Assembly: GCA_017471245.1 (NCBI GenBank) | Contig: JAFUVB010000093.1 | Location: 1 to 39,735 of the forward strand | Reading direction: 5' to 3' | DNA: 39,735 nucleotides | Source of the DNA: Prevotella sp. | GTDB lineage: Bacteria; Bacteroidota; Bacteroidia; Bacteroidales; Bacteroidaceae | In this document: positions 6,191-35,741 of the stretch, piece after piece | Layout of the letters: every line of letters starts with the position of its first letter | Numbering within the stretch: position 1 is the stretch's first letter | Notes under the pieces: model-generated | The model's input: only the letters and a program-made list of their open reading frames with translations | Database searches by the model: none | What the model was told of the DNA's origin: nothing | Position numbers and translations under genes: made by a program

Positions 6191-6191
6191 A

Positions 6192-6830: not shown

Positions 6831-6841
6831 AGTTTTATCAG

Positions 6842-7786: not shown

Positions 7787-7806
7787 GTTTTATTACGTTT
7801 CAGCTG

Positions 7807-9381: not shown

Positions 9382-9406
9382 TGTATTTCCTTTATTTCGT
9401 TAATGG

Positions 9407-12934: not shown

Positions 12935-13003
12935 AAAATAATATAATGATTAAAACTAAACCAAAGTCAAAAAAGGTCGTTGAGAACCCTCTCTATTGAT
13001 ATC

Positions 13004-13029
13004 TACGAAGCAAAAATGAAATAAGTCAC
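13004..13029 (-). promoter_or_regulatory. Putative ECF-sigma promoter for the susC operon
   Basis: Read on the minus strand, GTGACTT (13029-13023) is followed 15 nt after its last T by CGTA (13007-13004). This matches the geometry of ECF promoters (a GGAACTT-like -35 and a CGTC-like -10). The surrounding 36 nt match the fecR-facing sequence at 13584-13619 in 32 positions. No TAnnTTTG housekeeping box faces susC in this intergenic region. The predicted leader to the susC ATG is about 60 nt. Confidence 0.7.
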
Positions 13030-13079
13030 GCTTTTTTAAAAAATATTTCCAAAAAGACATTATTTTCCTTTTTTCATCG

Positions 13080-13087
13080 TATCTTTG
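13080..13087 (+). promoter_or_regulatory. Housekeeping -7 box for the sigma gene
   Basis: TATCTTTG matches the Bacteroidetes primary-sigma -7 consensus TAnnTTTG. It ends only 7 nt before the ATG at 13095, so the mRNA would have almost no leader. Confidence 0.75.
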
Positions 13088-13094
13088 CAACCAG

Positions 13095-13628
13095 ATGACT
13101 GAGAAAGAAAAGTTTGCTCCCGTCTACCGACAATACTATCAGCAGCTCTATCTGTTTGCCACCAGATATGTCTCTGACGGAGAAGAATGCCACGACATAA
13201 TCAGTGGGGCATTCGAGGAGTTGTGGCGGAATTTCGACCATGTGGATCTGTCATCGGTGAAAAGATATCTATATGTTTCGGTGAAGAACAGATGTATCGA
13301 CCTGCTGCGTCGCAAGGTGAAGCAAGACAGATATATAGAATATGTCGGCGTGATGGCGAAAGACTATATCGACGAGCAACGGTATGAGCAGAGTGAATAT
13401 AGGAGTGCCGTGGTGAGGAAAGTGTTGGACAGCCTTGTTTCTCCAGACCGTGAAATTCTCATTGCCTGCTATATCGAAGAGAAGAAATACCGCGAAGTGG
13501 CGGAAGAGATGGGCATCTCGGTATCCATGGTGAGGAAACACATGATGAAAGCCTTGAAAAAAGTGCGCCAGATGAAAGAATCTTTTAAAAAGAGTGACTT
13601 ATTTCTTTTTTTCTTCGTATTAAGTTAA
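13095..13628 (+). CDS. ECF-type RNA polymerase sigma factor (Bacteroidetes FecI-like)
   Basis: The 177-residue protein has sigma region 2 at residues of about 10 to 75 (FAPVYRQYYQQLYLFATRYV, then VKRYLYVSVKNRCIDLLRRK) and region 4 at about 110 to 165 (LVSPDREILIACYIEEKKYREVAEEMG followed by the helix SVSMVRKHMMKALKKVRQ). The start at 13095 is needed to keep the N-terminal part of region 2. It is transcribed divergently from susC and sits 7 bp before fecR. The last 13 codons (KKSDLFLFFFVLS) overlap the promoter-like sequence for fecR, so this tail is probably shaped by DNA signal rather than protein function. It likely directs transcription of susC and fecR once released by FecR. Confidence 0.95.
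   Translation: MTEKEKFAPVYRQYYQQLYLFATRYVSDGEECHDIISGAFEELWRNFDHVDLSSVKRYLYVSVKNRCIDLLRRKVKQDRYIEYVGVMAKDYIDEQRYEQSEYRSAVVRKVLDSLVSPDREILIACYIEEKKYREVAEEMGISVSMVRKHMMKALKKVRQMKESFKKSDLFLFFFVLS
13594..13619 (+). promoter_or_regulatory. Putative ECF-sigma promoter for fecR, inside the sigma gene
   Basis: GTGACTT at 13594-13600, a 15-nt spacer, then CGTA at 13616-13619. It is nearly identical to the susC-facing copy on the opposite strand at 13004-13029. It lies within the last codons of the sigma gene, 16 nt before the first possible fecR ATG. This would let the sigma factor raise expression of its own anti-sigma factor as feedback. Confidence 0.7.
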
Positions 13629-13635
13629 TAAAAGG

Positions 13636-14799
13636 ATGATCATGGAAGAAGAAAGAATAGACGATGGATTAGATTTGGCTTTCGAAGTCTTTGAGAGCGA
13701 AAACAACATCACTGAGGAGCAGTTGGAGCTGGTGAAAAGGGATAAACAGCTGCGCAATGACCTTCAGGCTATTCACGACATAAAAGCCGGGATGAAGCAT
13801 GGGGGAGAAGACTTGCACGTGGAGCAGCGACTCAGGGCATTCAATGTTTCTCATGGAATGGGGAACGATGCCATGACAGAAGAAATGAATTGCGAAGATA
13901 GCAGCAGGACGAGGGGCAGCCATTCCTTTATTAAATATATAACTGTAGCCGCTGCTGCGGCGGCAGTGTTGGCGTTTTTCCTGTTGAAGCATGGAGAACC
14001 TGAAGCCGCGCCTGCGGGAAGAGTGTTCACGGCTGATGCCACGTCTCGCGAAATCAGCATCATCACCAACGACAATCAGGAAATCTCTCTGCCTGTAAAA
14101 TCGGATGTCGACGAACCTGTTTCGATTGACGACTACCGGAAGTTGCTGGCTTCAGATGCCATCACCGACCGCATCACTGTGAACGTGCCATACGGGAAAA
14201 CGTCGGCAGTTGTGTTGCCTGACAGCAGTATGGTATATCTGCGTCCAGGCAGCCGTGTGTCGTTTCCCACTTCGTTCACCCAGACAGAGCGTGTTGTGAG
14301 AATAGAGGGGCAGGCTTATTTCAAAGTGAAGCATGACAACAGGCGACCTTTCATCGTGCTCACCCAACTGGCGCAGACCACCGTTCTTGGCACGGAATTC
14401 GATGTGAATGCCTGGGATGGTAAAGACACGGAAGTGTCTCTGGTGAATGGCTCTGTTGCTGTGAAGGCCCTCAAGAGCGGCGACCACCTTCGCCTTTCAC
14501 CCGGTCAGCAAGCTGTGGTGTCGGCAGATGCCGTCAGGGTTGCAGACATAGACCCCACGCCCTATCAATATTGGAGCGAAGGCTATCTGTATTACGAGAA
14601 CGAGGAGCTGCGCACTATCATGGAGGATATCGGCAAGAATTTCAACATGACAGTGGATTTCCAAAACGAGAAAGCGATGTCGCTCAGGATGCGCTTCATT
14701 ACGGAGCGCGACAAGGGCATTGATGTCGTTGTCAATCGCATGAACAAAATGAAGAAGGTAACGGTCACCGTTGACGCTGGTAGGATTATTGTGAACTGA
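13636..14799 (+). CDS. FecR-family anti-sigma factor
   Basis: The 387-residue inner-membrane regulator has a cytoplasmic sigma-binding segment at residues of about 1 to 95, a transmembrane helix at about 96 to 115 (YITVAAAAAAVLAFFLL), a periplasmic FecR domain at about 175 to 285 (VPYGKTSAVVLPDSSMVYLRPGS, RVVRIEGQAYFKVKHD, VLGTEFDVNAW) and a DUF4974-type C-terminal domain (YQYWSEGYLYYENEELRTIMEDI to the end). It should hold the ECF sigma factor until the STN domain of SusC signals occupancy. ATG at 13636 or 13642 are both possible. Its 3' end overlaps the convergent gene on the other strand by 14 bp. Confidence 0.95.
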   Translation: MIMEEERIDDGLDLAFEVFESENNITEEQLELVKRDKQLRNDLQAIHDIKAGMKHGGEDLHVEQRLRAFNVSHGMGNDAMTEEMNCEDSSRTRGSHSFIKYITVAAAAAAVLAFFLLKHGEPEAAPAGRVFTADATSREISIITNDNQEISLPVKSDVDEPVSIDDYRKLLASDAITDRITVNVPYGKTSAVVLPDSSMVYLRPGSRVSFPTSFTQTERVVRIEGQAYFKVKHDNRRPFIVLTQLAQTTVLGTEFDVNAWDGKDTEVSLVNGSVAVKALKSGDHLRLSPGQQAVVSADAVRVADIDPTPYQYWSEGYLYYENEELRTIMEDIGKNFNMTVDFQNEKAMSLRMRFITERDKGIDVVVNRMNKMKKVTVTVDAGRIIVN

Positions 14800-17321: not shown

Positions 17322-17329
17322 TATCTTTG
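17322..17329 (+). promoter_or_regulatory. -7 box for the glycosidase/corrinoid operon
   Basis: TATCTTTG is followed 32 nt later by the ATG at 17362. No other matching box was found in the gaps between the following genes up to 26341, so this is the likely main promoter of that gene group. Confidence 0.7.
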
Positions 17330-17361
17330 CAAACCAGAATGGGCAAATCAAAAACAAACCT

Positions 17362-19215
17362 ATGAGAAGATTATACATCACGATGGTGGCAATGGTGTGC
17401 TGCATGCAGATGATGGCGGGAGACATATTCGTTTCACCAAGCGGCAACGACGGCAACCCTGGGACGCGCGAGAAACCGCTCGCCACGCTGGAACAGGCTC
17501 TGCGGCAGGCACGCGAATGGCGACGACTGCAGCGAAAAGAGGTGGAAGGCGGCATACGTATCAACCTTGAGAGCGGCACTTACTTGCTTTCGCGCCCCAT
17601 CTTCATTCGTCCGGAAGACAGCGGCACGGAACTTTCGCCCACCATTATAAGAGGGGCGGCAGTATTGAGGGGCAGCATCAGGATTGAAAAATGGCAGCGC
17701 GGATGCAATGATGAGCGCGTGGCTCCTGCTTTGAGAGACAAGATTTGGACGGCAGAGGCTCCGATGGCGGGAAACAAGATTCTCTGGTTCAGACAGATGG
17801 ATCAGGGGCGCATGGCAACGCAGTTTGGAACGTTTTATGTAGAAAACGGCGGCAATGTAGCCATGCAGACACCGTCTGTGAAAATGGAGCGCATGCTGAA
17901 TTTCAACACGAATGAGAGAACGATCACCATACCTACGCCAAGACAAGACCTGAGCCGGGCAAACCAATTGGAGATGCTGGTGCATCAGCGATGGGCAACG
18001 GCGATACTGCGAGTGAAGAGCATGCGGGTGATGGGCGATTCCACTATCGTATCCTTCCACGAGCCGGAAAGCAAGATAGAGTTTGAGCATCCCTGGCCGC
18101 AACCTGTAATCAACGGTGAGAAAGGCAGTTCTTCGTACTGTCTGCAGAATGCATTGGAGCTGCTCGATGAACCGGGAGAATGGTATCAAGACTATCCTTC
18201 CGGGCGTGTTTATTATTATCCTTACGACGCTGAAATCCTGCAACTACAAGACAGCTTCTCAGCATGGTCATACGCGCCGGCGTTGAAGACCTTGGTGAAT
18301 ATCAGCGGAACGCCCGAGCGCCGCGTGCACCACATCCGTTTTGAGGGAGTGAATTTCATGGACGCAGCATGGACACGTCCGTCGGAACAAGGGCATGTCA
18401 CCCTGCAAGGAGGTTTTGCGATGATTGATGCCTATAAGCTGTTGGAACCCGGATTGCCCGAGAAGGCCGAGTTGGAGAACCAAGCCTGGATAGAGCGTCC
18501 GGATGCTGCGGTGAAGGTGAGCTATGCCGACGATATTGTTTTCGACGATTGTTTCTTCCGTCATCTTGCTGCCACAGGTCTTGATATGGAGAAAAGCGTG
18601 ACGCGTTCCGTCGTTCAGAACTGTTCGTTTCAGGAAATCGGCGGCACCGCCATCATGGTGGGTACATTCCCCGATCAAGGCTTTGAAACGCATGTTCCCT
18701 ATTCCCCGAAGCATGATGAGGACATCTGCGACATGGTTACGATCAGCAACAACGAGATACACCATTGCACAACTGAAGACTGGGGTGCTGTTGGCATCGC
18801 TGCAGGCTACGTGCGCAATATCCTGATACAGAATAACGAGGTGTCTGATCTTAACTATTCCGGCATTTGTGTGGGTTGGGGGTGGACAGCACTGGAAAGT
18901 GGCATGCGCAACAACCGTATTGAAGGTAACCATGTGTATTACTATGCCAAGCAGCTCTACGATGCCGGCGGTATCTATACGCTGAGTTATCAACCGAACT
19001 CTTTCATCCGAAACAATACCATTGAGGCTCCCGTAAAGGCTCCATACGCCACCAACGACCGCGCCTTCTGCATCTATTTCGATGAGGCTACCGATGGCTA
19101 TACGGTGGAAAACAACTGGATGCCTTTCGAGAGTTTCGGATATAACAAGCCCGGACTACACATGATCATACGAAATAATGGTCCTCAGGTGAAGGTGGGA
19201 AAGATAGAAGATTAG
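17362..19215 (+). CDS. Secreted right-handed parallel beta-helix protein, possible GH141-like glycosidase
   Basis: The 617-residue protein has a signal peptide (MRRLYITMVAMVCCMQMMAG). It opens with IFVSPSGNDGNPGTREKPLA, the usual start of a large group of beta-helix carbohydrate enzymes, and continues with LESGTYLLSRPIFI. Further hallmarks are NALELLDEPGEWYQD, GRVYYYP, and helix rungs such as VQNCSFQEIGGTAIMVG, ISNNEIHHCT and IQNNEVSDLNYSGICVGWGW. The pattern and length recall GH141 (alpha-fucosidase/xylanase) proteins, but the catalytic residues cannot be confirmed by eye, so only the beta-helix class is firm. It is the first gene after a clear promoter and 60 bp before the GH31 gene, which suggests joint attack on a plant polysaccharide fragment. 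Confidence 0.82.
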   Translation: MRRLYITMVAMVCCMQMMAGDIFVSPSGNDGNPGTREKPLATLEQALRQAREWRRLQRKEVEGGIRINLESGTYLLSRPIFIRPEDSGTELSPTIIRGAAVLRGSIRIEKWQRGCNDERVAPALRDKIWTAEAPMAGNKILWFRQMDQGRMATQFGTFYVENGGNVAMQTPSVKMERMLNFNTNERTITIPTPRQDLSRANQLEMLVHQRWATAILRVKSMRVMGDSTIVSFHEPESKIEFEHPWPQPVINGEKGSSSYCLQNALELLDEPGEWYQDYPSGRVYYYPYDAEILQLQDSFSAWSYAPALKTLVNISGTPERRVHHIRFEGVNFMDAAWTRPSEQGHVTLQGGFAMIDAYKLLEPGLPEKAELENQAWIERPDAAVKVSYADDIVFDDCFFRHLAATGLDMEKSVTRSVVQNCSFQEIGGTAIMVGTFPDQGFETHVPYSPKHDEDICDMVTISNNEIHHCTTEDWGAVGIAAGYVRNILIQNNEVSDLNYSGICVGWGWTALESGMRNNRIEGNHVYYYAKQLYDAGGIYTLSYQPNSFIRNNTIEAPVKAPYATNDRAFCIYFDEATDGYTVENNWMPFESFGYNKPGLHMIIRNNGPQVKVGKIED

Positions 19216-19275
19216 AAACTTCTTTCCTCTTGCTTTAAAAAAGAATAAGACATTATAAAAAACAAGAATTAAGAT

Positions 19276-21537
19276 ATGAAACCAACCAACTACCATCTGT
19301 TCGACTTCATGGACTTTGACCCGGAACTGAAACGGGAGGAGAGTCTCTGGAAGGCGGGTAGACCCAATGGCATCTATATGCGTGATGGCGACATTTGCGT
19401 AAACATTCCTTTTGTTAAACAAGTTCTGTCAAACGACATGGCTGAAGATCCAACCAGTGAAAATGAGGAATACACGCTTGTCATCAGATACTATGAGCCA
19501 AACATTATCAGGGTGTTCGTCGATTTCGAGCACCCGGGCAACACCTCTCCTGTTGAGGCTGACGAAATGCTTAAGTTTGCCAAGCAAATAAAGAAAAAAC
19601 CGCTGCAGCTTTTTGCTGAAACCGACACTCAAGGTAACTATTATGCCTCTACAGAAGATGGCATCAAGCGTATACACATTGTGCAGACAACACCTGATAT
19701 CGACTTTTGGAGCAACTTGCAGCCTGCCCCTCAGGAAACCGTAGACATACGTTTCTTCCCTGATGGAGAGCATGAAGTGAGACTGGCATCATACGATCAT
19801 TTCTCACCACCACGCTATGATGCATTGCCTGTTGCTTTTTGTAAGACAACCAGTAACAACAACCGTGCCACCCTTTCTTTTGAATGTAAGCCCGATGAAT
19901 GTTTCGTCGGTACGGGAGAGCGGTTCATGAAGATGGATCTGAGTGGTCAGACTTTCTTCCTGAAGAATCAAGACGGGCAAGGTGTGAACAATCGCCGTAC
20001 TTACAAGAACATTCCCTTCTACCTGTCAAGTCGTATGTACGGAACGTTCTATCACACCACGGCACACAGCAAACTGTCGCTTGCAGGGCATTCCACCCGC
20101 AGTGTGCAGTTCCTCAGCGATCAGGCAATGATTGATGCTTTTATCATCGGTGGAAACAGTGTGGAGGAGATTATCCGCGGTTACCGCAATCTTACCGGCT
20201 ATCCATCTATGCCTCCTTTGTGGAGTTTCGGCGTGTGGATGAGCCGCATGACCTATTTCTCAGCCGACGAAGTGAACAGTATCTGCGACCGCCTGCGACA
20301 GGAGCATTATCCGTGTGATGTGATTCATTTGGATACGGGTTGGTTTAAGACTGACTGGCTCTGCGAATGGAAATTCAATGATGAACGTTTCCCTGACCCA
20401 CCAGCATTCATCAAAGGGCTGAAAGACAAGGGATTCCGCGTATCGCTCTGGCAATTGCCTTACGTGGCTGAAGATGCGGAGCAGATAACCGAAGCCCGTG
20501 AAAACAACTATATCGGTCCGCTCACCAAGCAGCAGGCTTCTGAAGGCAGTAATTTCTCCGCCCTCGATTATGCTGGTACCATTGACTTCACCTACGATAA
20601 GGCTACCGAATGGTATAAAGGATTGCTCAGACGTCTCTTGGAGATGGGTGTGGCTTGTATCAAGACCGATTTTGGTGAGAACATCCACATGGATGCGAAA
20701 TACAAGAACATGTCGCCCGAACTGCTGAACAACCTCTATGCATTGCTCTATCAGAAGGCAGCCTATGAGGTGACGAAGGAAGTGACAGGCGACGGCATCG
20801 TATGGGCACGTGCTGCATGGGCTGGCTGCCAGCGTTATCCCTTGCATTGGGGTGGCGACAGCTGTTCGTCATGGGATGGCTTGGCGGGTTCGTTGAAGGG
20901 CGGATTGCATTTCGGACTGTCTGGATTTGCTTTCTGGAGCCACGATGTGCCGGGGTTCCACACGTTGCCCAATTTCATGAACGGTATCGTGAAGGATGAT
21001 GTGTATGTGAGATGGACGCAGTTTGGCGTGTTCTCTTCCCACATCCGCTATCATGGCACCAATAAGCGCGAGCCGTGGCACTATCCCAACATTGCACCGA
21101 TTGTGAAGAAGTGGTGGAACCTGCGCTATGCCTTAATACCTTATATCCTGCAAGAGAGTATGATTGCGTGTGAGACAGGATACTCCCTTCTGCAGGCATT
21201 GGTGTTCCATCACCACGAAGACAAGGTGTGTTGGCATATCGACGATGAGTATTATTTCGGCAACGACTTCTTGGTGGCTCCCGTGATGAACAGTGAGAAC
21301 CGTCGCGAAGTCTATCTGCCCGAAGGTTCGTGGGTGGACTTCTTCACTGGCAAGTGTTATGAAGGCAGGCAATGGCTACAGCTTGAGAACATTCCATTAG
21401 AGAAGATGCCTGTCTTTGTGCGTGATGGCGCAGAGATTCCCATGTATCCGGAACATGTGGAGTGTACAGATGAAATGGATATGAACAAGGTGGTAACAGT
21501 GAAAATCAACCGTGCATTTACTGGCTATCAGCTCTGA
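19276..21537 (+). CDS. GH31 family alpha-xylosidase-like glycoside hydrolase
   Basis: The 753-residue protein has no signal peptide and so is probably cytoplasmic. The (beta/alpha)8 core shows MPPLWSFGVWMSRMTYFS, DVIHLDTGWF and the nucleophile motif IKTDFGE (D465). A further acid/base motif is WGGDSCSSWDGL (D528), followed by GLHFGLSGFAFWSHDVPGF. Length and order match YicI-type alpha-xylosidases, with the N-terminal beta domain at about 1-300 and C-terminal beta domains after about 640. It would remove alpha-linked xylose, or a modified xylose, from imported oligosaccharides. It follows the beta-helix gene by 60 bp and precedes the methyltransferase fusion by 27 bp, so co-transcription is likely. 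Exact sugar specificity cannot be read from sequence. Confidence 0.92.
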   Translation: MKPTNYHLFDFMDFDPELKREESLWKAGRPNGIYMRDGDICVNIPFVKQVLSNDMAEDPTSENEEYTLVIRYYEPNIIRVFVDFEHPGNTSPVEADEMLKFAKQIKKKPLQLFAETDTQGNYYASTEDGIKRIHIVQTTPDIDFWSNLQPAPQETVDIRFFPDGEHEVRLASYDHFSPPRYDALPVAFCKTTSNNNRATLSFECKPDECFVGTGERFMKMDLSGQTFFLKNQDGQGVNNRRTYKNIPFYLSSRMYGTFYHTTAHSKLSLAGHSTRSVQFLSDQAMIDAFIIGGNSVEEIIRGYRNLTGYPSMPPLWSFGVWMSRMTYFSADEVNSICDRLRQEHYPCDVIHLDTGWFKTDWLCEWKFNDERFPDPPAFIKGLKDKGFRVSLWQLPYVAEDAEQITEARENNYIGPLTKQQASEGSNFSALDYAGTIDFTYDKATEWYKGLLRRLLEMGVACIKTDFGENIHMDAKYKNMSPELLNNLYALLYQKAAYEVTKEVTGDGIVWARAAWAGCQRYPLHWGGDSCSSWDGLAGSLKGGLHFGLSGFAFWSHDVPGFHTLPNFMNGIVKDDVYVRWTQFGVFSSHIRYHGTNKREPWHYPNIAPIVKKWWNLRYALIPYILQESMIACETGYSLLQALVFHHHEDKVCWHIDDEYYFGNDFLVAPVMNSENRREVYLPEGSWVDFFTGKCYEGRQWLQLENIPLEKMPVFVRDGAEIPMYPEHVECTDEMDMNKVVTVKINRAFTGYQL

Positions 21538-21564
21538 ATATGATTTACTAAAACTTATATAATA

Positions 21565-24500
21565 ATGATGAACACGTGGAAACCAAATTTAGAGGAAACC
21601 AAGAAAAGATACATCAATTGGTGGAATCATAAGGGTATTATATTGAATATGTGGGAGCACTTTCAGGAAGGTGTATCCCCACATGCAGATATCCAGATGC
21701 CAAAGGCACCCAAGGACTTGAACCAGAAATGGTTTGACCCTCAATGGCGTGCCGACTACTTAGACTGGTATGTGGCTCATTCATCACTGATGGCCGACAT
21801 GCTGCCCGTTGCCAACACACAACTGGGACCAGGCTCTTTGGCTGCCATTCTCGGTGGTGTGTTCGAAGGTGGTGAAGATACGATATGGATTCACCCCGAC
21901 CCGAATTATTCTGATGAAATCAAGTTCAACCCCAACCATCCCAACTACCTGCTTCACAAAGAACTGCTCAAGGCTTGTAAGAAGAAAGCTCAAGGACACT
22001 ATTATGTGGGTATGCCCGACCTGATGGAGGGAATGGATGTGCTGGCTGCCATCAAGGGAACAGACAAAGTGTTGCTCGACACGGTGATGCAGCCCGAGGT
22101 GCTTGAACATCAGATGCAGCAGATAAACGACATCTATTTTCAGGTGTTCGATGAGTTGTATGACATCATCCGCGAAGGTGACGAAATGGCATTCTGCTAT
22201 TTCTCATCATGGGCACCGGGTAAGATGTCGAAGCTGCAGAGTGATATATCAACGATGATCAGTGTAGACGATTATCACCGCTTTGTTCAACCGTTCATCC
22301 GCGAGCAATGTCAGAAGATTGACTATACACTCTATCATCTTGACGGTGTGGGAGCCATGCACCATCTTCCTGCCTTGCTGGAGATTGAAGAACTGAACGC
22401 TATTCAGTGGACGCCTGGTGTGGGTGAGCCGCAGGGCGGTAGTCCGAAATGGTATGACCTTTACAAGAAGATACTCGCTGGTGGAAAGAGCATTATGGCT
22501 TGTTGGGTTACTCTTGACGAGCTGAAACCACTGCTTGATAATATCGGTGGTGATGGCGTTCATATCGAAATGGACTTCCACAACGAGCGCGAAGTGGAAC
22601 AGGCAATGCGCATCATAGAGGAATACCAGAGCGAAGGCGAGGTTGAACGCGAAGTGGAAGATATCATACGCATCACGGAGAATGCCATGAGGCAAGATGC
22701 AGAGCAATCCGTGCAGGATAAAGAAACAGACCGCGAGGTGATGAGCATCATCCAGCGCGTGGAGGAAGACAGCCACATGCACGGAGGAAAATGTCCTTGT
22801 GGGATTGATCATGAGGTGAGAGGTGAGAAATTAGAGGTGAGAGGTGAGAAGTCAGAGGTGAGAGGTGAGGAGTCAGAAGTTAGAGGCGAGAAGTTAGAGG
22901 TTAGAGGTGAGAGTGTTGAAAGGGATTTGGAGGAATCCGCTCGCCGCCGTATCCTCATTCTCGATGGTGCCATGGGAACGATGATTCAGCAGTATCAGCT
23001 GACAGAAGAACATTTCCGCGGTAGGCGCTTTGCCCATCATGACAAGACTTTGCGGGGATGCAACGACCTGCTATCGCTTACATGTCCGTATATAGTCAGC
23101 GATACCCATCGCAGATATTTAGAAGCCGGAGCCGACATCATTGAGACGAATACGTTTAATGCCCAGCGGATATCAATGGGCGACTACGGCTTGCAGGACT
23201 ATTGCCGTGAAATCAACCTGGCTGCTTGCACACTCGCACGCGCCGTTGCTGACGAATACACGGCGAAGACACCCGAAAAGCCACGTTATGTGCTTGGTTC
23301 TGTGGGACCGACAAGCAAGACCTGTTCCATGACAACAGGCGGCAACGAGGCATTTGATGAGGCGATACTGCGCGCTGCCTATGCCGAACAAATAGAAGCA
23401 CTCATCGATGGCGGAGTAGATGGTATCCTGATTGAAACCATCTTCGATATCAAGAATGCACAGGTTGCTATAGATGCAGCTGAGGCTGTCATGAAAAAGA
23501 AACATACGGAACTCCCCATCCTGCTGAGTTTCTCCATTGCCACCGCCGACGGACATAACATGTTGGGGCAGTCGATTCACGAATTCCTCAATACCTTGAA
23601 AGGAAAGAGAATCTTCTCTGTGGGTATTAACTGCCTGAGCGATGTAAATCAGATGTTACCGTTTATCCTCGATGTCTGTAGCACGCAGGATTTCCGTTTC
23701 TCGCTGTATCCCAATGCGGGAATGCCCGATGGCAACGGAAAATATCACAAAACCGCCAGTTCTCTGCAAGCCGAACTATGGCCATTGATGGATGCCCATT
23801 TGCTGAATATCGTTGGCGGATGCTGTGGCACTACGCCAGAGCATATTCAGAAACTGGCACAACTGGTGGAGCCGGCTTCAGGATTGTTTGTCAGTCCGAG
23901 AATCCCCGGCAAACAAACGGGAATTCAGATAACGGTGGCCCGTGAAGACGGTGCCGAACCAGTAAACGAAGAGCGTGAAGCCGACAGTTCTGAGGTTCCT
24001 GCAGTTCCGCCATCACCAGCTCCGACATCCGTCGATGATGTTCTCCACCGTATCTTCGATGCCATTCTCAACGGAAAATCGGATGAGGCGGCAGCAGCTA
24101 CGCGCGATGCCATCGCACAAAACATTCCTCCACAGGACATCATTAACAGCCAGATGATTCGCGCCATGGGCGAAGTGGGGCAGCGCTTCCAAGACGGAAA
24201 GGCGTTTGTTCCTCAGTTGCTGATGGCAGGACGCGCCATGAAGGCTGCTTTGGAATTGTTGAAACCCATGTTGGCTGGCTCTGCCTCCACCACACTTGGC
24301 AAAGTGGTTATCGGTACGGTGAAAGGCGACTTGCACGACATTGGCAAGAACCTTGTGGCATCAATGCTCGAAGGCTGTGGTTTTGAAGTGGTGAACATCG
24401 GTATCGATGTGTCGGCAGACAAGTTCATAGAGGAAGTAAAGAAGAACGAACCGGATATTCTGTGTATGAGCGCACTGCTCACCACCACAATGGGCTACAT

Positions 24501-24672
24501 GAAAGAGGTGATTGATGCCTTGGAATCTGCTGGTATTCGCGACAAGGTGAAAGTGATGGTGGGCGGAGCTCCTGTCACTCAAGGCTTTGCCGATGAGATT
24601 GGTGCCGACGGATACAGCGACAATGCCAATTCTGCTGTTGCCGTTGCCAAGCAGCTGCTCGGTAAACTGTAG
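21565..24672 (+). CDS. Three-part corrinoid methyltransferase fusion: UroD-fold domain, homocysteine methyltransferase, B12-binding domain
   Basis: The protein has 1035 residues. Residues of about 1 to 355 have the uroporphyrinogen decarboxylase fold shared with MtaA/CmuA methyltransferases, but carry HLD (258-260) where MtaA has HxC, so it is not obviously a thiol methylase. Residues 356-416 are an acidic linker ending in GGKCPCG (C410, C412). Residues 417-451 are five EVRGEKL-like heptads encoded by a DNA repeat. Residues 460-765 form a MetH-type homocysteine methyltransferase (LDGAMGT at 466; zinc cysteines C690, C753, C754). Residues 823-905 are the helical cap, and 906-1035 bind cobalamin (DLHDIG, H924). 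Inferred function: the first domain methylates the corrinoid from a substrate and the second passes the methyl to homocysteine. No SAM activation domain is attached, but one is encoded at 27597. Confidence 0.92.
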   Translation: MMNTWKPNLEETKKRYINWWNHKGIILNMWEHFQEGVSPHADIQMPKAPKDLNQKWFDPQWRADYLDWYVAHSSLMADMLPVANTQLGPGSLAAILGGVFEGGEDTIWIHPDPNYSDEIKFNPNHPNYLLHKELLKACKKKAQGHYYVGMPDLMEGMDVLAAIKGTDKVLLDTVMQPEVLEHQMQQINDIYFQVFDELYDIIREGDEMAFCYFSSWAPGKMSKLQSDISTMISVDDYHRFVQPFIREQCQKIDYTLYHLDGVGAMHHLPALLEIEELNAIQWTPGVGEPQGGSPKWYDLYKKILAGGKSIMACWVTLDELKPLLDNIGGDGVHIEMDFHNEREVEQAMRIIEEYQSEGEVEREVEDIIRITENAMRQDAEQSVQDKETDREVMSIIQRVEEDSHMHGGKCPCGIDHEVRGEKLEVRGEKSEVRGEESEVRGEKLEVRGESVERDLEESARRRILILDGAMGTMIQQYQLTEEHFRGRRFAHHDKTLRGCNDLLSLTCPYIVSDTHRRYLEAGADIIETNTFNAQRISMGDYGLQDYCREINLAACTLARAVADEYTAKTPEKPRYVLGSVGPTSKTCSMTTGGNEAFDEAILRAAYAEQIEALIDGGVDGILIETIFDIKNAQVAIDAAEAVMKKKHTELPILLSFSIATADGHNMLGQSIHEFLNTLKGKRIFSVGINCLSDVNQMLPFILDVCSTQDFRFSLYPNAGMPDGNGKYHKTASSLQAELWPLMDAHLLNIVGGCCGTTPEHIQKLAQLVEPASGLFVSPRIPGKQTGIQITVAREDGAEPVNEEREADSSEVPAVPPSPAPTSVDDVLHRIFDAILNGKSDEAAAATRDAIAQNIPPQDIINSQMIRAMGEVGQRFQDGKAFVPQLLMAGRAMKAALELLKPMLAGSASTTLGKVVIGTVKGDLHDIGKNLVASMLEGCGFEVVNIGIDVSADKFIEEVKKNEPDILCMSALLTTTMGYMKEVIDALESAGIRDKVKVMVGGAPVTQGFADEIGADGYSDNANSAVAVAKQLLGKL
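22813..22917 (+). repeat. Repeat C inside the methyltransferase gene (five 21-bp units)
   Basis: Five consecutive units of 21 bp of the form GAGGTGAGAGGTGAGAARTYA encode five seven-residue repeats (EVRGEKL, EVRGEKS, EVRGEES, EVRGEKL, EVRGESV). The same sequence in reverse complement fills 32673-32858 and part of 37008-37083. The unit length divisible by three preserves the frame. It joins two protein parts that are separate proteins in many other organisms. Confidence 0.9.
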
Positions 24673-24769
24673 GTGAAACGAAAAAGATATATAATGTATC
24701 AGGATCGTCAATCACAGTCACTGAATATGAATAGCAACATTATCAATATCAAATAAAACTATAAAACCT

Positions 24770-26341
24770 ATGCAAGCAAAATTCTTAGGAACACTCGACT
24801 GGACAATTCTCGTTGCCTATTTCCTTATATTATTAGCAATCGGGGTATGGGCAAGCACCAAGCGCAAGAAAGGCAGCAGTCTTTTCTTGGCAGAACATTC
24901 TCTGAGATGGCACCATATCGGTTTTTCGATGTGGGGAACCAACGTGGGACCTTCGATGCTGATAGCTTCAGCCAGTGCGGGATTCACCACAGGTATCGTT
25001 TCTGGTAACTATGCCTGGTATGCCTTCGTGTTCATTTTCCTCTTGGCTTTCGTCTTCGCACCTCGCTATTTAGGAAGCAATGTGAACACGTTGCCCGAAT
25101 TCATGGGACTGCGATTCGGTCAGCAGACGCGAAACATCCTTGCGTGGTATACCATTGTCACCGTTTTGATTTCCTGGCTTGCGCTCACGCTCTTTGCCGG
25201 AGGTATTCTCATTCGCCAGATTTTCGACATTCCCATGTGGGCATCGGCACTCATCCTGCTTGCCATCTCGGCATTCTTCACCATGCTGGGTGGACTCAAG
25301 GCAGTTGCTTATACCAACGTTTATCAGATGGTGCTGCTCATTATTGTCAGTGCCACGCTCACCATTGTGGGACTTGTCAAAGTGGGAGGCGTGGGCAATC
25401 TCTATGATGCCGTGCCTCACGGTTTCTGGAATTTATTCCAGCCTAATGACGATCCGGCATTCCCGTGGCTGCCCATTCTGCTTGGCTATCCCATCATGGG
25501 TGTGTGGTTCTGGTGCACAGACCAAAGTATGGTGCAGCCAGTGCTGGCGGCAAAGAGTCTCAACGAAGGTCAGAAAGGAGCCAATTTCACAGGTTGGCTG
25601 AAGATTCTGGATGTTCCTCTGTATATTCTTCCCGGTGTGTTGTGCCTTGCTTTGTACCCGTCGTTGCAGAATCCTGATGAGGCTTACATGACGATGGTCA
25701 CCAATTTGTTCCCTGTGGGCATGGTGGGACTGGTGCTTGCCGTGCTTACTGCAGCCCTTGTGAGCACCATCGGTTCAGCGCTTAATGCACTGAGCACCGT
25801 GTTCACCATGGATATCTACGTGAAGAAATATAATCCGAAAGCCAGTCAGCCGGAGATTATCCGCATGGGACAGTATGTAACTGTTGTTGGAGCCGTTATC
25901 TCAGTGTTGATATGCATTGCTATCGACAGCATCAAAGGGCTCAATCTGTTCAACGTTTTCCAGTCGGTGCTGGGGTTCATTGCCCCGCCGATGGCTGCTG
26001 TTTTCCTCTTCGGGGTGTTCTGGAAGCGCACCACAAGCCGTGCTGCCAATATGGCTTTGACGCTTGGAACGGTATTCTCGATAGGTGTTGGAATCCTTTA
26101 TCTGTGGGTTCTTCCTGCTGAGAAATACACATTCTGGCCTCACTTCATGATGTTGTCATTCTATATCTTCATCATCATCAGTATGGCGATGATTATCGTT
26201 TCTCTGCTTGACAAGACGCCACAGCAGGCCACCATGATGAAAAAACTCGCTGACAAGCCGACGATTGGTGTGAAGATAGGATGGGCAATGCTGATTATCG
26301 TGATGATTTGCCTGTACATCTTCTTCAACGGACATGTATGA
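24770..26341 (+). CDS. Sodium:solute symporter (SSS/SLC5 family), sugar-type
   Basis: The 523-residue inner-membrane protein has about 13-14 hydrophobic helices beginning LDWTILVAYFLILLAIGVWAS. The segment GVWFWCTDQSMVQPVLAAKS is the signature of the sugar-transporting SLC5/SGLT branch rather than proline or pantothenate carriers. SALNALSTVFTMDIY fits the conserved SSS sodium-site helix. It would import a sugar or cyclitol with sodium. It follows the methyltransferase fusion by 97 bp on the same strand, with no promoter box between, so the imported compound is a good candidate for the substrate of the GH31 enzyme or its products, or of the methyltransferase. The exact sugar is not predictable. 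Confidence 0.93.
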   Translation: MQAKFLGTLDWTILVAYFLILLAIGVWASTKRKKGSSLFLAEHSLRWHHIGFSMWGTNVGPSMLIASASAGFTTGIVSGNYAWYAFVFIFLLAFVFAPRYLGSNVNTLPEFMGLRFGQQTRNILAWYTIVTVLISWLALTLFAGGILIRQIFDIPMWASALILLAISAFFTMLGGLKAVAYTNVYQMVLLIIVSATLTIVGLVKVGGVGNLYDAVPHGFWNLFQPNDDPAFPWLPILLGYPIMGVWFWCTDQSMVQPVLAAKSLNEGQKGANFTGWLKILDVPLYILPGVLCLALYPSLQNPDEAYMTMVTNLFPVGMVGLVLAVLTAALVSTIGSALNALSTVFTMDIYVKKYNPKASQPEIIRMGQYVTVVGAVISVLICIAIDSIKGLNLFNVFQSVLGFIAPPMAAVFLFGVFWKRTTSRAANMALTLGTVFSIGVGILYLWVLPAEKYTFWPHFMMLSFYIFIIISMAMIIVSLLDKTPQQATMMKKLADKPTIGVKIGWAMLIIVMICLYIFFNGHV

Positions 26342-26425
26342 TGTCGCGCCGGAAGGCACCGGCATCTGCATGTTCTAAGTTAATGGACACAATTATCTAA
26401 TATCAATAGTTAATCATCAGGGAAT

Positions 26426-27439
26426 ATGAAAAGGATACTTCTTTCGCTGTTGCTTTTTGCAGGCGTTTTCCAGGTTTGTATGGCGCAGTATGACTACGTC
26501 GTAAAGTTCGATTCTTATAGATTCAAGCCAAGATTGAATGTTCCTGTCGACACCATCCGGCGACCTGCAACGCTCTATATAAGCCGTGAGGGAACAATTC
26601 GCGTGGAGCTTAGCGGCAAAAGCACCTATACCATACCTTTCGACGAAGTGAAGGTGGAGACCGGTAGTGGGTGGTTTATCATCTTGATTTCATGGACAAA
26701 TCTGAAGTTTTACAAGAACGGGAAAGAGATGGCTGAAATTTCGGATGATGGTGAATTCACCGCTCGCTCTACCGATTATCCGTACATCAATATGAAAAAC
26801 CCGCAACTCAGAGACCTCTTCTACACCATCAAACCGCTGGCAGAAAAAAACACTTTCTTCCAAAAACGGCAGCCTAAGCCGCAGCCCCAGGCTCCCACTA
26901 AGGCGGTTAACAGCAACACGATGATATGTATCTACGACGGGGGCTACTTTATCCGCGACGGAAACAAGTGGTATGAATACCGCCCGAAGCAGAACCCCAC
27001 TGCCCCGTGGGCATATTACGACCAGTATCATGAGGAGTCGGGCTTCTACAACATCAAGAGTTCGGCGTGCTTTGTGAGCATTCCGAAAACGGCGAACAAC
27101 AACATTTTCATTTACAGAAACAACAAGTGGGAGGTGATCTACTACACGAAACAGATGTTCAACTTCTGTCCTGAGCGGGGCAACAAGTTGTTCTGCCACA
27201 CGCGCGGATTCTTTTTCAAGACCGGAAACCAATGGCGGGAGTATCTGCCTGGCAGCAACAGCTCGGGCGTTTGGGCATCTTACACGGAGACAGGTCACGA
27301 TGACGGCTTCTACTATATCAAGAACAACACCAATGAAGTGGCGGTTCCGCGAAAGGCGGTCAATAAGTTTTTCCTTCGGAAAACGGCTAACGACGCATGG
27401 ACGGAGGTATATACCACCACGCAAGTGTTCGACTATTGA
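26426..27439 (+). CDS. Secreted protein of unknown function with two internal repeats
   Basis: I do not recognise this 337-residue protein. It has a signal peptide (MKRILLSLLLFAGVFQVCMAQ). The first 150 residues look like a small beta domain. The second half contains two related segments of about 80 residues: KWYEYRPKQNPTAPWAYYDQ...ESGFYNIK... and QWREYLPGSNSSGVWASYTE...DGFYYIK..., each ending in a hydrophobic KWEVIYYTKQMF / AWTEVYTTTQVF motif. This suggests a duplicated beta module. It lies 84 bp after the symporter gene on the same strand, so it might be the last gene of that operon, but its function need not be related. Confidence 0.8.
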   Translation: MKRILLSLLLFAGVFQVCMAQYDYVVKFDSYRFKPRLNVPVDTIRRPATLYISREGTIRVELSGKSTYTIPFDEVKVETGSGWFIILISWTNLKFYKNGKEMAEISDDGEFTARSTDYPYINMKNPQLRDLFYTIKPLAEKNTFFQKRQPKPQPQAPTKAVNSNTMICIYDGGYFIRDGNKWYEYRPKQNPTAPWAYYDQYHEESGFYNIKSSACFVSIPKTANNNIFIYRNNKWEVIYYTKQMFNFCPERGNKLFCHTRGFFFKTGNQWREYLPGSNSSGVWASYTETGHDDGFYYIKNNTNEVAVPRKAVNKFFLRKTANDAWTEVYTTTQVFDY

Positions 27440-27467
27440 TTTCTCAAAGATGAGGCTTCTTTGAGTG

Positions 27468-27553
27468 AAACCTATGCTTTTGCGCCCTGAAACCTATGTT
27501 TTTAAAGGGCAAAAGCATAGGTTTGCTGAAATGGGTACGCAAAAGCATAGGTA
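27468..27553. repeat. Repeat D, site 1: two inverted and two direct copies; bidirectional hairpin
   Basis: The core AAAAGCATAGGTTT appears in reverse at 27468-27481 and 27490-27503 (spaced exactly 22 bp), then forward at 27511-27524 and in shortened form at 27541-27553. The first reverse copy and first forward copy, with flanking GCGCCCT and AGGGC, form a stem of about 19 bp with a 2-nt bulge. This lies between two convergent genes (stops at 27439 and 27597) and could terminate both transcripts. Confidence 0.75.
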
Positions 27554-27596
27554 TTAATGATTCTCAGATGATTGAAAAAGGATGATTTGGGGAAGT

Positions 27597-28340
27597 CTAT
27601 TTCCGCTGCTTCATCCTTTTCTTAAAGCAATTCTTGAAGTCGCAAAGACCGCAGGTGTAGTCAAGATAGCGCACCTTCGGTCCCACTCCGATGATGCCGC
27701 TCACCGACTTGATGGGTGTCATCAGCGAGCTGGCGGTGAGTTCCACGCCGCAGGGATTGCCTGCAATGGTCGCGCCGTTGCCTGCTGCTGCCGCGCCGCT
27801 GCTGTCTGCCTGTTGCTGATTAAATAGGGGAAAGAGTTTCTGCTGCTCACTGACGTGCCATCCGCAGTAGCCAGGTGAGAAACGGTTGGTGCGGTTCCAT
27901 TGCAACTTGTCTATCGATTCCTGAAGCGACAGTTCCATCTGGTCGGCACATTTCTCAGCTATCACGCTGCCCAAGGCATCGGCTATGAACACGCGCACCA
28001 TGTCGCCGTCGCGCATGAGCCTCCGTTGATAGTCCTCATATTCCGTTCCTGCGGTGCATATAAAGAGGGCAAACGCCTCGCTGCCGCGCAACTGGCGGGC
28101 TATGATCTTGCCAATGGCGAAGCGTTGACCCATGGTCAGCTCTTCGTTTTCTACCGACAGGCTTCCACGTTTCACCATAAAGCAGTAGCGCGGGTGCAGA
28201 AAAGCCTTCACCTCTTCCACGATGCGGCTCATCTCTGAGCGCACTGCTGCATCGGGAACATGGTTGTCGTAGCCCATCTGCACGTAGATGTCAGATGCAG
28301 AAATCTTAAGGTCGGAATATGAAAGCTCCTTGTATGTCAA
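27597..28340 (-). CDS. Vitamin B12-dependent methionine synthase activation-domain protein
   Basis: The 247-residue cytoplasmic protein matches the MetH activation-domain fold as a stand-alone protein: FALFICTAGTEYEDY, DALGSVIAEKCADQMEL, the signature FSPGYCGWHVSEQQKLFPLF and LTASSLMTPIKSVSGIIGVGP. In MetH this domain binds S-adenosylmethionine and re-methylates oxidised cobalamin with an electron donor. The C-terminus adds a cysteine cluster (C230, C233, C238; TCGLCDFKNC), which might bind metal or an Fe-S centre as in corrinoid reactivators. A Gly/Ala-rich insertion (SSGAAAAGNGATIAG) interrupts the domain before CGVELT. It lies 13 bp after the MtaA-type gene, in the same operon, and probably repairs the corrinoid protein at 21565-24672, which lacks such a domain. 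Confidence 0.88.
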   Translation of the reverse strand: MTYKELSYSDLKISASDIYVQMGYDNHVPDAAVRSEMSRIVEEVKAFLHPRYCFMVKRGSLSVENEELTMGQRFAIGKIIARQLRGSEAFALFICTAGTEYEDYQRRLMRDGDMVRVFIADALGSVIAEKCADQMELSLQESIDKLQWNRTNRFSPGYCGWHVSEQQKLFPLFNQQQADSSGAAAAGNGATIAGNPCGVELTASSLMTPIKSVSGIIGVGPKVRYLDYTCGLCDFKNCFKKRMKQRK

Positions 28341-28353
28341 CGGTGTTCAGCTG

Positions 28354-29367
28354 TTATTGATGTGAGCGATTATATGCTTCGAGTGCCTCGAAGAACGCAT
28401 CGATGTTGGCAGCCGGTGTGTGCGGCGGTGTGTCGCAGCCGCTTGAGAGCACGAAGTTGGGATAATCGCGGGTTTTTTCCAAAAGATCTGCCACCACTTC
28501 CTTCATATTTTCAGGTGTAGCATCTTTGAAGACAGACACCGGATCCACATTTCCCATGGCGAGCGCAGTGGGCGGAACGTCCTTCAAAACCTCCTCCATG
28601 CGGCACTTGTTTCCAAAGTGATAGGCAGCGGCTCCGGTGGCAACCATTGCCTCGGTGCAATGTCCTGTATTGCCGCAGTTGTGGAGCACCACGATGAATT
28701 CATCATCCTGCACCTTGTCAACAATCTGTTTCACATACTGCGATGAGAATATCTTGCAGTCGTCGTTGCTCATCAGGCCGGCGGCAGGTTCCGCCATCAC
28801 CACGCCGTTGGCACCTGTTGCCTTCAGTGCCATGCAGTATTTCAGGATAAAGTCGGTGCATTTCTGCAACAAGGTGTGAGCTGCGTCGGGATTTTCGTAT
28901 ATGAGCACCATGATCTCAGACATGTCGTAGAGACGCCCTGCGAGTGAAAACGGACCGATGCAACCACTGAAGAGCGGACGGTCGTTGATGCTCCTTGCTG
29001 CCAGCAGGTTGGCTTTTAGATAGGCAGGAATGCGCCCTGTATTGAGCGACGGCACTTCCAGCCTGTTGATAGCGTCGGCATCGGGAAGCAGTCGGTTAGA
29101 AACGGCAGGCACGGCAATGTCGGAGAACTCAATCTTTGCGCCAAAAGATTCTGCCTCAGTGGTCAGATCCATGATTGTTGCAGCCGCTGCACTGGGATAG
29201 CTCTCTGTGAGTTTCATCACCGCATTGTAGTGAACGCGCCCGTCGCTGACAGCCTCTTTCACCGTGTTTCCGTTCATTTCAATGCCCGGATGCGTCATGA
29301 TGGGTACTGCCATCACTTCTTTCTTTTGGATCACATCGTGGATCCACTGTGTCATATTCATTTTCAT
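28354..29367 (-). CDS. MtaA/MtbA-type zinc methyltransferase (UroD fold)
   Basis: The 337-residue protein has the uroporphyrinogen decarboxylase fold. The pattern H229-N-C231 (LHNCGNTG) with C311 (SSGCDTPP) matches the His-x-Cys...Cys zinc site of MtaA and MtbA, which move methyl groups between a corrinoid protein and a thiol. True UroD catalytic residues are not evident, so a haem role is unlikely. Other family marks are GPFSLAGRL and the ending YNRSHQ. It has its own promoter at 29411 and is followed by the B12 reactivation gene, so the pair forms a corrinoid methyl-transfer operon. Methyl donor and thiol acceptor are not known; Bacteroidetes lack coenzyme M as far as is known. Confidence 0.88.
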   Translation of the reverse strand: MKMNMTQWIHDVIQKKEVMAVPIMTHPGIEMNGNTVKEAVSDGRVHYNAVMKLTESYPSAAAATIMDLTTEAESFGAKIEFSDIAVPAVSNRLLPDADAINRLEVPSLNTGRIPAYLKANLLAARSINDRPLFSGCIGPFSLAGRLYDMSEIMVLIYENPDAAHTLLQKCTDFILKYCMALKATGANGVVMAEPAAGLMSNDDCKIFSSQYVKQIVDKVQDDEFIVVLHNCGNTGHCTEAMVATGAAAYHFGNKCRMEEVLKDVPPTALAMGNVDPVSVFKDATPENMKEVVADLLEKTRDYPNFVLSSGCDTPPHTPAANIDAFFEALEAYNRSHQ

Positions 29368-29410
29368 GACTTTTCAGTTAATTGTTTTTAGTAATTCGTT
29401 TTTTCGCTTA

Positions 29411-29418
29411 CAAAGATA
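29411..29418 (-). promoter_or_regulatory. -7 box for the MtaA-type/B12 activation operon
   Basis: On the minus strand it reads TATCTTTG, 44 nt upstream of the ATG at 29367. It is back to back with the box at 29462. Confidence 0.7.
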
Positions 29419-32277: not shown

Positions 32278-32706
32278 ATGATAACTTACAATACCGACGG
32301 CGTGAAAATGCCGCAAATCAAGAGAAGGGAAACCACGGCATGGATACGCCGCGTGGCTGCCACGTATGGCAAAAAAGTGGGCGAAGTGGGCTATATGTTC
32401 GTCAACGATGAGAGAATACTGGAAGTAAACCGTGAGTATTTGGGACACGACTACTACACCGACATCATCACTTTCGACTATGACGAGGGAAACATCGTCA
32501 ATGGTGACCTGGTGATAAGTATAGACACCGTGAAGACCAATGCAGAGAAATTCGGAAAGCCATACGAAGAAGAACTCTACCGGGTAATCATCCACGGCAT
32601 CCTACATCTGTGCGGCATCAACGACAAAGGACCGGGAGAGCGCGAAATCATGGAAGCTGCAGAGAACCGAGCACTCACCTCCTCACCCCTCAACACCCAT
32701 CTCTAA
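32278..32706 (+). CDS. ybeY: Endoribonuclease/rRNA maturation factor YbeY with repeat-derived tail
   Basis: The 142-residue metal-dependent RNase acts in 16S rRNA processing and ribosome quality control. Motifs: LEVNREYLGHDYYTDIITFDYD and IIHGILHLCGINDKGPGE. In Escherichia coli the motif is HGxLHLxGxDH; here the third His position is Asp (IND), which I recall as common in Bacteroidetes YbeY. The last residues (LTSSPLNTHL) and the stop codon are encoded by the start of repeat C, which has extended into the gene and replaced the natural tail. Confidence 0.95.
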   Translation: MITYNTDGVKMPQIKRRETTAWIRRVAATYGKKVGEVGYMFVNDERILEVNREYLGHDYYTDIITFDYDEGNIVNGDLVISIDTVKTNAEKFGKPYEEELYRVIIHGILHLCGINDKGPGEREIMEAAENRALTSSPLNTHL

Positions 32707-32858
32707 TCTCTCACCCCTAATCTCTCACCTCTCACCTCTAATCTCTCACCCCTCACCCCTAAGTTTCTCACCTCTCACCTCTAATCTCTCACCTCTCACC
32801 CCTAAATTTCTCACCTCTCACCCCTAAGTTTCTCACCTCTCACCCCTCACCTCTAAAT
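32673..32858. repeat. Repeat C array between ybeY and panE
   Basis: About eight units of 19-22 nt based on TCTCACCTCTCACCTCTAA, with variants CACCCCTAAGTT and CACCCCTAAATT. It supplies the last ten codons and stop of ybeY and ends about 10 bp before panE. The same sequence occurs, in the opposite sense, at 22813-22917 and, in this sense, at 37008-37083. Confidence 0.9.
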
Positions 32859-35605: not shown

Positions 35606-35741
35606 GTTATATTAGTTTCCGAAGGATTCACAGAAGGAGCGTAATGCTGAAATATAAGTTTTCGGAGAATTCGCAGAAGGGAAGGAAGGAACATGATATT
35701 AGTTTTCGGAGGAACCACAGAGGGAAGGAATGCCGTGAAAG
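35606..35741 (+). repeat. Three degenerate 45-bp tandem copies ending in the cbiJ start
   Basis: ATATTAGTTTCCGAAGGATT (from about 35608), ATATAAGTTTTCGGAGAATT (from about 35653) and ATATTAGTTTTCGGAGGAAC (35696) begin three related blocks of 42-47 bp. The third is the real start of the gene and encodes ILVFGGTTEGR. The first two, read in the same way, give near versions of this peptide broken by stop codons. Confidence 0.6.

Follow-up and report, generated by a model that had tools for sequence, protein, structure and literature searches.

The stretch of DNA analysed here (hereafter 'the window') is a 39,735-nucleotide contig of Prevotella sp. (JAFUVB010000093.1 of assembly GCA_017471245.1, positions 1 to 39,735), the central part of which places genes of glycan utilization beside genes of putative corrinoid-dependent methyl transfer. 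Four genes run on the + strand in the order GH141, GH31, a three-part fusion and a sugar symporter, with intergenic gaps of 60, 27 and 97 bp, while a gene for an activation-domain protein and a gene for a zinc MtaA-like methyltransferase are located on the opposite strand, 13 bp apart. Open reading frames (ORFs) and Pfam matches agree on this arrangement, as an earlier note made from the sequence alone had described it. The features are:

17322..17329, + strand: TAnnTTTG box 5' of the GH141 run, the only one in the pattern scan
17362..19215, + strand: GH141, a relative of BT_1002 with a signal-peptide-like N-terminus by eye (Pfam GH141_M 4e-53; 5mqp 2.2e-148)
19276..21537, + strand: alpha-xylosidase-type GH31 resembling YicI, in which inspection by eye showed no signal peptide (Pfam)
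21565..24672, + strand: three-part fusion gene, 1035 aa (ORF list, Pfam)
21565..22764, + strand: fusion domain 1, about residues 1-400, UroD-fold candidate substrate:corrinoid methyltransferase (structure model, profile comparison)
22789..22929, + strand, approximate limits: repeat-built linker of the EVRGEK type (repeat inspection)
22954..23865, + strand: fusion domain 2, residues 464-767, homocysteine S-methyltransferase (HMT; Pfam S-methyl_trans 1.7e-84)
24043..24639, + strand: fusion domain 3, residues 827-1025, corrinoid protein (CP; Pfam B12-binding_2 and B12-binding, DxHxxG present)
24770..26341, + strand: SGLT-type sodium:solute symporter (Pfam SSF)
27597..28340, - strand: stand-alone MetH-type activation domain, 247 aa, with C-terminal cysteines (Met_synt_B12, fold)
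28354..29367, - strand: MtaA/CmuA-type zinc methyltransferase, 337 aa (Pfam URO-D 5.2e-56)

Regarding the single promoter proposed earlier for the + strand run, one TAnnTTTG box, which we take to be of the -7 type of Bacteroidales promoters, lies at 17322, and the same scan gave no match to the -33 pattern upstream of the run. Published work is cited below from excerpts of openly licensed articles.

The three-part fusion protein

The first domain of the fusion yielded no usable sequence match in Pfam or the PDB, even as a 30-sequence profile. When its AlphaFold2 model (mean pLDDT 66.9, pTM 0.68) was compared with the PDB using Foldseek, MtaA of Methanosarcina mazei ranked first (4ay8; E 1.4e-6). 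Fourteen structures were matched at E<=1e-3, of which 13 exhibit the UroD fold and one is GH138 (6hze). Likewise, comparison of the domain 1 profile with 12 UroD-type proteins, namely 11 from distant Bacteroidota clusters and the window's own MtaA-like protein, gave a probability of 93.9% over 121 columns. In the joint alignment, His258 of domain 1 is at the position of the zinc His of the HxC motif, the Cys of which is replaced by Asp260. Since zinc-free UroD-type substrate:corrinoid methyltransferases (MTIs) are known, the loss of this cysteine is compatible with a substrate methyltransferase, and the MTIs of O-demethylases likewise have the UroD fold (PMC13222342). A wider family of domain 1 could not be delineated by sequence: a search of 395 genomes of the phylum returned, besides the window's genome, just four weak matches with 21-29% identity.

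The HMT and CP domains are readily recognized. The HMT cysteines C690, C753 and C754, which we take from MetH to be zinc ligands, are kept in 72, 71 and 71 of 80 alignment rows, and D922/H924/G927 of the corrinoid domain in 77 of 80, all remaining rows being gaps. In two genomes of relatives (G077 and G109) a stop ends domain 1 and the corrinoid protein follows as the next, separate frame. In a tree of HMT domains a branch (100/100) sets the 49 fusion rows apart, next to the family's short MetH-like proteins; sequences with stops, hits shorter than 250 residues and fusions more than about 80% alike were left out, and the stand-alone HMT of one distant locus (L113) did not pass. This is consistent with one capture of the HMT domain. 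Repeated capture, suggested by identities of about 44% in some loci, finds no support in the tree, in which the fusion rows all lie on one side.

The HMT domain is absent in eight loci of Bacteroides/Phocaeicola type, namely four isolates (Bacteroides or Phocaeicola) and four metagenome-assembled genomes (MAGs), three titled Bacteroides and one Paenibacillus. Methyl transfer to homocysteine via this domain therefore cannot be general. The MAG record titled Paenibacillus (L070) carries a cluster of Bacteroidota type, and its title is probably wrong.

The linker of the fusion is an in-frame GAGGTGAGAG/TTAGAG repeat, further copies of which lie on the opposite strand at 32640-32840 and on contig C88; it thus seems that a dispersed repeat has been turned into a protein linker. 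Besides the fusion, one other protein with a homocysteine methyltransferase domain was found in the genome, which is MetH-like and 1244 aa long (L108); it is 39% identical to the HMT domain of the fusion. In the family, the MetH-like matches listed are for the most part about 920 aa long, and long frames are present in G023 and G049, which also possess the fusion.

Acceptor and reactivation enzymes

The MtaA-like protein matches NCBIfam mtaA_cmuA at 7.4e-39, below that model's cut-off, and PDB entry 4ay7 at 1.1e-12, and its HxC...C zinc ligands are present in 52 of 52 rows. It is the sole URO-D match in the genome (assembly 94% complete). An identity as HemE was rejected: the MtaA/CmuA models score better than hemE (all below cut-off), and the zinc site is present. 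Orthologs at E<=1e-40 were found in 9 of 326 genomes of the phylum, the window's included. No corrinoid-protein cluster is in view near the ortholog in L154 and L157, and in L156 just a corrinoid-like ORF.

For the activator, the Pfam match to Met_synt_B12 covers 33 residues only, and the start codon is uncertain (TTG in the 27597..28340 call). The fold confirms the activation-domain identity assigned earlier: the top structural match of the model (pLDDT 85.4, pTM 0.82) is TM0269, a MetH activation domain encoded on its own (E 1.3e-12; target-based TM 0.85), and 18 more MetH structures are matched at E<=1e-3. Cysteines C230, C233 and C238 are present in 49 of 49 aligned rows.

Glycoside hydrolases and symporter

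The nearest solved GH141 to that of the operon is BT1002 (5mqp), with full-length similarity. The Asp pair D534/D574 aligns with the catalytic residues D523/D564 of BT1002 (PMC10154630) and is present in 47 of 50 rows, the other three being gaps. A second GH141 on contig C73 of the same genome is nearer to BT_1002 (bit score 782.8, as against 498.5 for the operon protein), and the operon GH141 therefore represents a second type.

The GH31 protein matches the NCBIfam alpha-xylosidase model at 2.1e-138, which is below the cut-off of that model, and its closest solved structure is 5f7c (chain named "Alpha-glucosidase"; E 0, 1368 bits), which we take to be BT_0339. The nucleophile motif KTDFGE, aligned to 1we5, is present in 46 of 47 rows and differs in one. 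For the symporter, SGLT1 is the best PDB match (1.1e-63), and a bacterial vSGLT-type protein is matched at 1.5e-56.

Conservation and co-occurrence

Scanning GTDB genomes with domain 1, the best 80 of 229 stretches were kept, which are mostly Prevotella-type MAGs and thus not independent; the top-ranked named relatives are Prevotella or Prevotellaceae MAGs. In the 36 loci with about 10 kb on either side, the nearby genes are GH31 (28), GH141 (26), symporter (28), MtaA-like (28) and activator (28). Conserved linkage had been named beforehand as a point on which the reading of the cluster hinged, and the set indeed stays together in many relatives: all six parts, corrinoid domain included, are present in 23 of the 36 loci. 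GH31 is found on the upstream side in 6 loci and on the downstream side in 22, so the set persists in two or more gene orders. The linkage extends across Prevotella, Bacteroides, Phocaeicola, Xylanibacter and Marseilla, with Phocaeicola vulgatus ATCC 8482, Xylanibacter caecicola and Marseilla massiliensis as named members, and Bacteroides faecis (contig end) and Prevotella pectinovora as partial ones.

Domain 1 was found in 14 of 301 genomes of the family (4 of 30 genera). Co-occurrence, which the earlier note had proposed to test, is strict for GH31: an ortholog (>=70% identity) is encoded in exactly these 14 genomes. The GH31 matches listed for other genomes at E<=1e-100 are at most 44% identical; at most three candidates were scored per genome, and an ortholog of weaker rank could in principle be missed.

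The marker for use of rhamnogalacturonan II (RG-II), Beta-prop_BT_1020, exceeds its cut-off in 29 of the 301 genomes (31 at E<=0.001) and is present in all 14 genomes with domain 1 (expected 1.35; p 1.8e-16; the p values given here ignore kinship). Among the 22 genomes of the window's genus, the 4 with domain 1 all have the marker, compared with 3 of the 18 that lack the domain (p 0.005). As a control, a lyase acting on rhamnogalacturonan I (RG-I) was found in 168 of the 301 genomes, 159 of them over cut-off; among the 14 genomes with domain 1, 11 have it (expected 7.8; p 0.066). With this control weak, a general pectin-degrader cause of the RG-II association was rejected; the window's own genome gave no match to the RG-I lyase control.

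More distant relatives in Bacteroidota combine similar parts. In L113 and L114 a GH31 (36-37%) is found together with a corrinoid protein, an activator (38%), an MtaA-like protein (50-51%) and several genes of UroD type. L153, L155 and L158 combine a corrinoid protein, an MtaA-like gene and an HMT; their activator resembles the window's in L153 and L155 and is RamA/AcsV-like in L158, and the two GH31 queries used found no relative in any of these three loci. Sugar-linked corrinoid systems may thus be commoner in Bacteroidota. It was also observed that L113 encodes an HMT as a gene of its own, along with an RbsD/FucU-type gene, and that four of these five distant clusters contain an HMT and two a GH31.

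Relation to rhamnogalacturonan II

The presence of the RG-II marker in 14 of 14 genomes and BT1002 as the nearest solved GH141 support the link to RG-II suggested earlier. The window's genome further contains apiosidase, GH95, esterase-like and BT_1020-like genes on contig C108, GH127, GH78-like and GH2 genes next to the second GH141 on C73, and a third, weaker GH141_M match on C5. In relatives, with one representative scanned per group, neighbours of the fusion include L-fucose isomerase, BT_1020-like, GH78, GH106 and GH127 genes.

BT1002 frees the disaccharide 2-O-methyl-D-xylose-α1,3-L-fucose (2-O-Me-Xyl-α1,3-Fuc) from side chain A of RG-II (PMC10154630). The excerpts describe Bacteroides thetaiotaomicron (B. 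theta) as cutting 21 of the 22 linkages in RG-II and leaving the one within this disaccharide (PMC7939467), or as cutting all linkages but one (PMC12282258). B. theta itself appears to possess a related cluster, which is known here from published annotations: BT_0338 is annotated as GH141 (PMC8264420), BT0339 as alpha-xylosidase (in a table of PMC10434189), and BT_0340, BT_0342 and BT_0343 as methylamine/trimethylamine methyltransferase corrinoid proteins (PMC8941943); BT_0341 is not named in the excerpts of the openly licensed literature used. In co-culture, BT_0338, BT_1002, the 2-O-methyl-fucosidase BT_0984 and BT_4136 each changed more than 2.8-fold (PMC8264420).

Proposed pathway and alternatives

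The genes, their domain families and folds, the conserved active-site residues, the linkage and the co-occurrence are established by the above, and we consider it moderately likely that the cluster constitutes an O2-independent corrinoid O-demethylation module for a methylated RG-II sugar, most likely 2-O-methyl-D-xylose of side chain A. The reactions, their cellular location, the substrate and the order of steps are what we infer. In the proposed pathway, (i) the secreted GH141, together with BT1002-type enzymes of RG-II loci, would free 2-O-Me-Xyl-α1,3-Fuc, which (ii) the SGLT-type symporter would import and (iii) the cytoplasmic GH31 would split at the α1,3 linkage into fucose and 2-O-methyl-xylose; (iv) the UroD-fold domain would then move the methyl group to Co(I) of the fused corrinoid domain, leaving xylose. 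From there, (v) the fused HMT would produce methionine in the Prevotella-side versions, with the zinc MtaA-like enzyme providing a second outlet to a thiol and taking over where the HMT domain is missing, and (vi) the activation-domain protein would re-reduce inactive Co(II) and methylate it with S-adenosylmethionine. The one-to-one association of GH31 with the methyltransferase fits this pathway, because the disaccharide would need a cytoplasmic alpha-xylosidase-type enzyme. In the loci devoid of the HMT the MtaA-like enzyme is the likely methyl outlet, and HMT-bearing clusters keep the MtaA-like gene as well. The earlier proposal of methyl-sugar import followed by demethylation to homocysteine is partly supported, by linkage, co-occurrence and RG-II association, the homocysteine route through the fused HMT not being general.

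Several observations weigh against this pathway. The operon GH141 may differ in specificity, a closer relative of BT1002 being encoded elsewhere in the genome. The GH31 lacks C307/F308 of YicI, which we take to be specificity residues of the xylose pocket (positions counted on the alignment), and has T354/G355 instead, as does 5f7c, with T/G at these positions in 46 of 47 rows. The confidence of the domain 1 model is modest, and 8 of the 36 full-flank loci have no nearby GH31, as 8 have no nearby MtaA-like gene. Moreover, domain 1 is missing from 15 of the 29 marker-bearing genomes, so that the domain is not needed for RG-II use. A B12 probe captured four known B12 proteins, BT_0340, BT_0342 and BT_0343 not being among them in the excerpts of that report (PMC8941943). 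The strongest such evidence is that wild-type B. theta accumulates 2-O-Me-Xyl-α1,3-Fuc in minimal medium (PMC7939467, the main text of which, in the excerpts, does not mention vitamins or B12); possible reasons are that the genes are not expressed, that the disaccharide is not taken up again after release, or that the substrate is a different one.

This last possibility leads to an alternative to which we assign an appreciable, though clearly smaller, likelihood: the same corrinoid O-demethylation might serve another RG-II-linked methyl compound, such as 2-O-methyl-L-fucose from chain B, a methylated oligosaccharide left intact, or a methyl sugar not yet recognised that these bacteria encounter, and GH141, GH31 and symporter would then prepare that substrate. 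The RG-II association leaves the sugar unnamed, and both the build-up of the methyl-xylose disaccharide in B. theta (PMC7939467) and the departure of GH31 from YicI at the two positions are in line with it, as are loci (L055, L058 and L098) in which genes for L-fucose isomerase and rhamnosidase, but no nearby GH31, accompany the fusion. Against it stands the GH31 ortholog in exactly the 14 genomes with domain 1. Moreover, 2-O-methyl-fucose needs no alpha-xylosidase-type enzyme, being released by the exo-acting GH139 BT0984 (PMC12282258), and since a figure legend labels this sugar in spent media of B. theta, B. theta may not use it either (PMC7939467).

We regard it as improbable that the fusion is a variant methionine synthase with a non-sugar methyl donor (pectin methanol, a betaine-like or a methylthio compound) and the sugar genes mere regulon neighbours. 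The family's short MetH-like proteins (~920 aa) do show up to 54% identity to the HMT domain, the corrinoid domain matches NCBIfam methylamine/betaine corrinoid models (below their cut-offs), and methanol arises from pectin (PMC13391211). Yet the genome encodes a separate MetH-like protein, eight orthologs are devoid of the HMT, the co-occurrence with GH31 is strict, and no MtaB- or MttB-type Pfam match was found among the 27 window ORFs scanned. Less probable still is an inactive or regulatory UroD-fold domain in a cluster whose neighbourhood is historical. Replacement of the zinc HxC cysteine would agree with it, the domain being known from sequence and model; but 29 other domains are 83-94% identical to the window's (best hits, a biased sample), the domain keeps its corrinoid neighbour, be it fused or as the separate frame of G077 and G109, and zinc-free UroD-type MTIs exist (PMC13222342).

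It is then tempting to extend the pathway for 2-O-methyl-xylose to the proposition that in gut Bacteroidales GH31 breaks the RG-II linkage for which no cleavage is known in B. theta and oxygen-free, B12-dependent demethylation of 2-O-methyl-xylose turns a methyl group of dietary sugar into methionine, all of this being one branch of a wider Bacteroidota family for methylated glycans that includes L113 and L114; taken jointly, we rate these statements as slightly more apt to fail than to stand. If true, the cluster would provide candidate genes for the linkage that is reported uncut by B. theta (PMC7939467), and a role for B. theta genes labelled as methylamine/trimethylamine methyltransferase corrinoid proteins (PMC8941943). 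Plant food would then constitute a B12-dependent methyl source for gut bacteria, and competition for vitamin B12 in the gut would be tied to the use of a specific dietary glycan.

Other features of the window

Between the two gene groups, positions 26426-27439 encode a protein that looks secreted by eye; a defence-type reading of this gene was dropped, with no match in PADLOC, Pfam or NCBIfam. No B12 riboswitch was found in the window at Rfam gathering thresholds. A CbiJ-CbiD fusion gene of cobalamin synthesis is located at 35693-37753, about 6 kb from the B12-dependent cluster, and a SusC/SusD-type locus with an M16 peptidase, a thioredoxin-like protein, a sigma-70-type factor and a FecR-like protein spans 2285-14799. 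A dispersed repeat with a 22-bp period and the core CAAAAGCATAGGTT occurs at 27469-27553 and 37795-37831; the core has 96 exact copies genome-wide, often in short arrays (reversed control 0). GCAAAAGCATAGGTT was found in 1 of 158 loci compared, L120, which is this very place.

Comparison with known systems

Neither a glycan substrate for a corrinoid O-demethylase nor this set of fusion, acceptors and activator was found in the openly licensed literature searched. The anaerobic corrinoid O-demethylases (MtvB/OdmB/VdmB/MtoB) and the chloromethane system CdmBCA share with the window's system an MTI of the UroD superfamily, a corrinoid protein, a second methyltransferase and an activator (PMC13222342). 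In the window, however, the MTI is fused to the corrinoid protein, the acceptor enzymes are of the homocysteine and/or zinc MtaA-like type, and the context is one of glycan genes instead of aromatic methoxyl groups. A Pfam scan of 27 window ORFs, which did not extend to other contigs, gave no match to a pterin-binding second methyltransferase. O-demethylases rely on an ATP-dependent Fe-S activator, whereas the window has a MetH activation-domain fold; within its genome this comparison, too, covers the window only, and a RamA/AcsV-like activator was identified in the distant L158 alone. With MetH, the system has in common the homocysteine domain with three zinc cysteines, the corrinoid domain and the activation-domain fold; in contrast to MetH, the fusion possesses a UroD-fold domain, shows no folate (pterin) domain among its Pfam matches and has its activation domain in trans. 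As far as tested in the window, two features of the O-demethylases (the pterin-type acceptor and the ATP-dependent activator) are thus lacking, as is the folate domain, and although the system would work like a corrinoid O-demethylase, we therefore treat it, as known here from genes and models, as a novel form of corrinoid methyltransferase system that is outside the MtvB/OdmB class and is not MetH.

The chloromethane enzyme CmuA likewise unites a UroD-type MTI and a corrinoid protein in one chain (PMC13222342), but in the window's fusion an HMT is inserted, there is no haloalkane context, and domain 1 is too diverged for sequence search. With the RG-II loci of B. theta (BT1002, BT1020 and others) the cluster shares the GH141 family, in addition to the marker found in every genome with domain 1; in contrast, BT_0338-0343 are not listed among RG-II genes in the excerpts of the papers cited, and the window's module would come into play in the cytoplasm, once the polymer has been broken down. 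Finally, the cytochrome P450 of marine Formosa and Zobellia likewise removes the O-methyl group from a polysaccharide-derived sugar, 6-O-methyl-galactose (PMC8360166). While that route employs a monooxygenase and yields formaldehyde, the route proposed here would need no oxygen and would keep the methyl group; if it is true, it would represent the anaerobic counterpart of P450 sugar demethylation.

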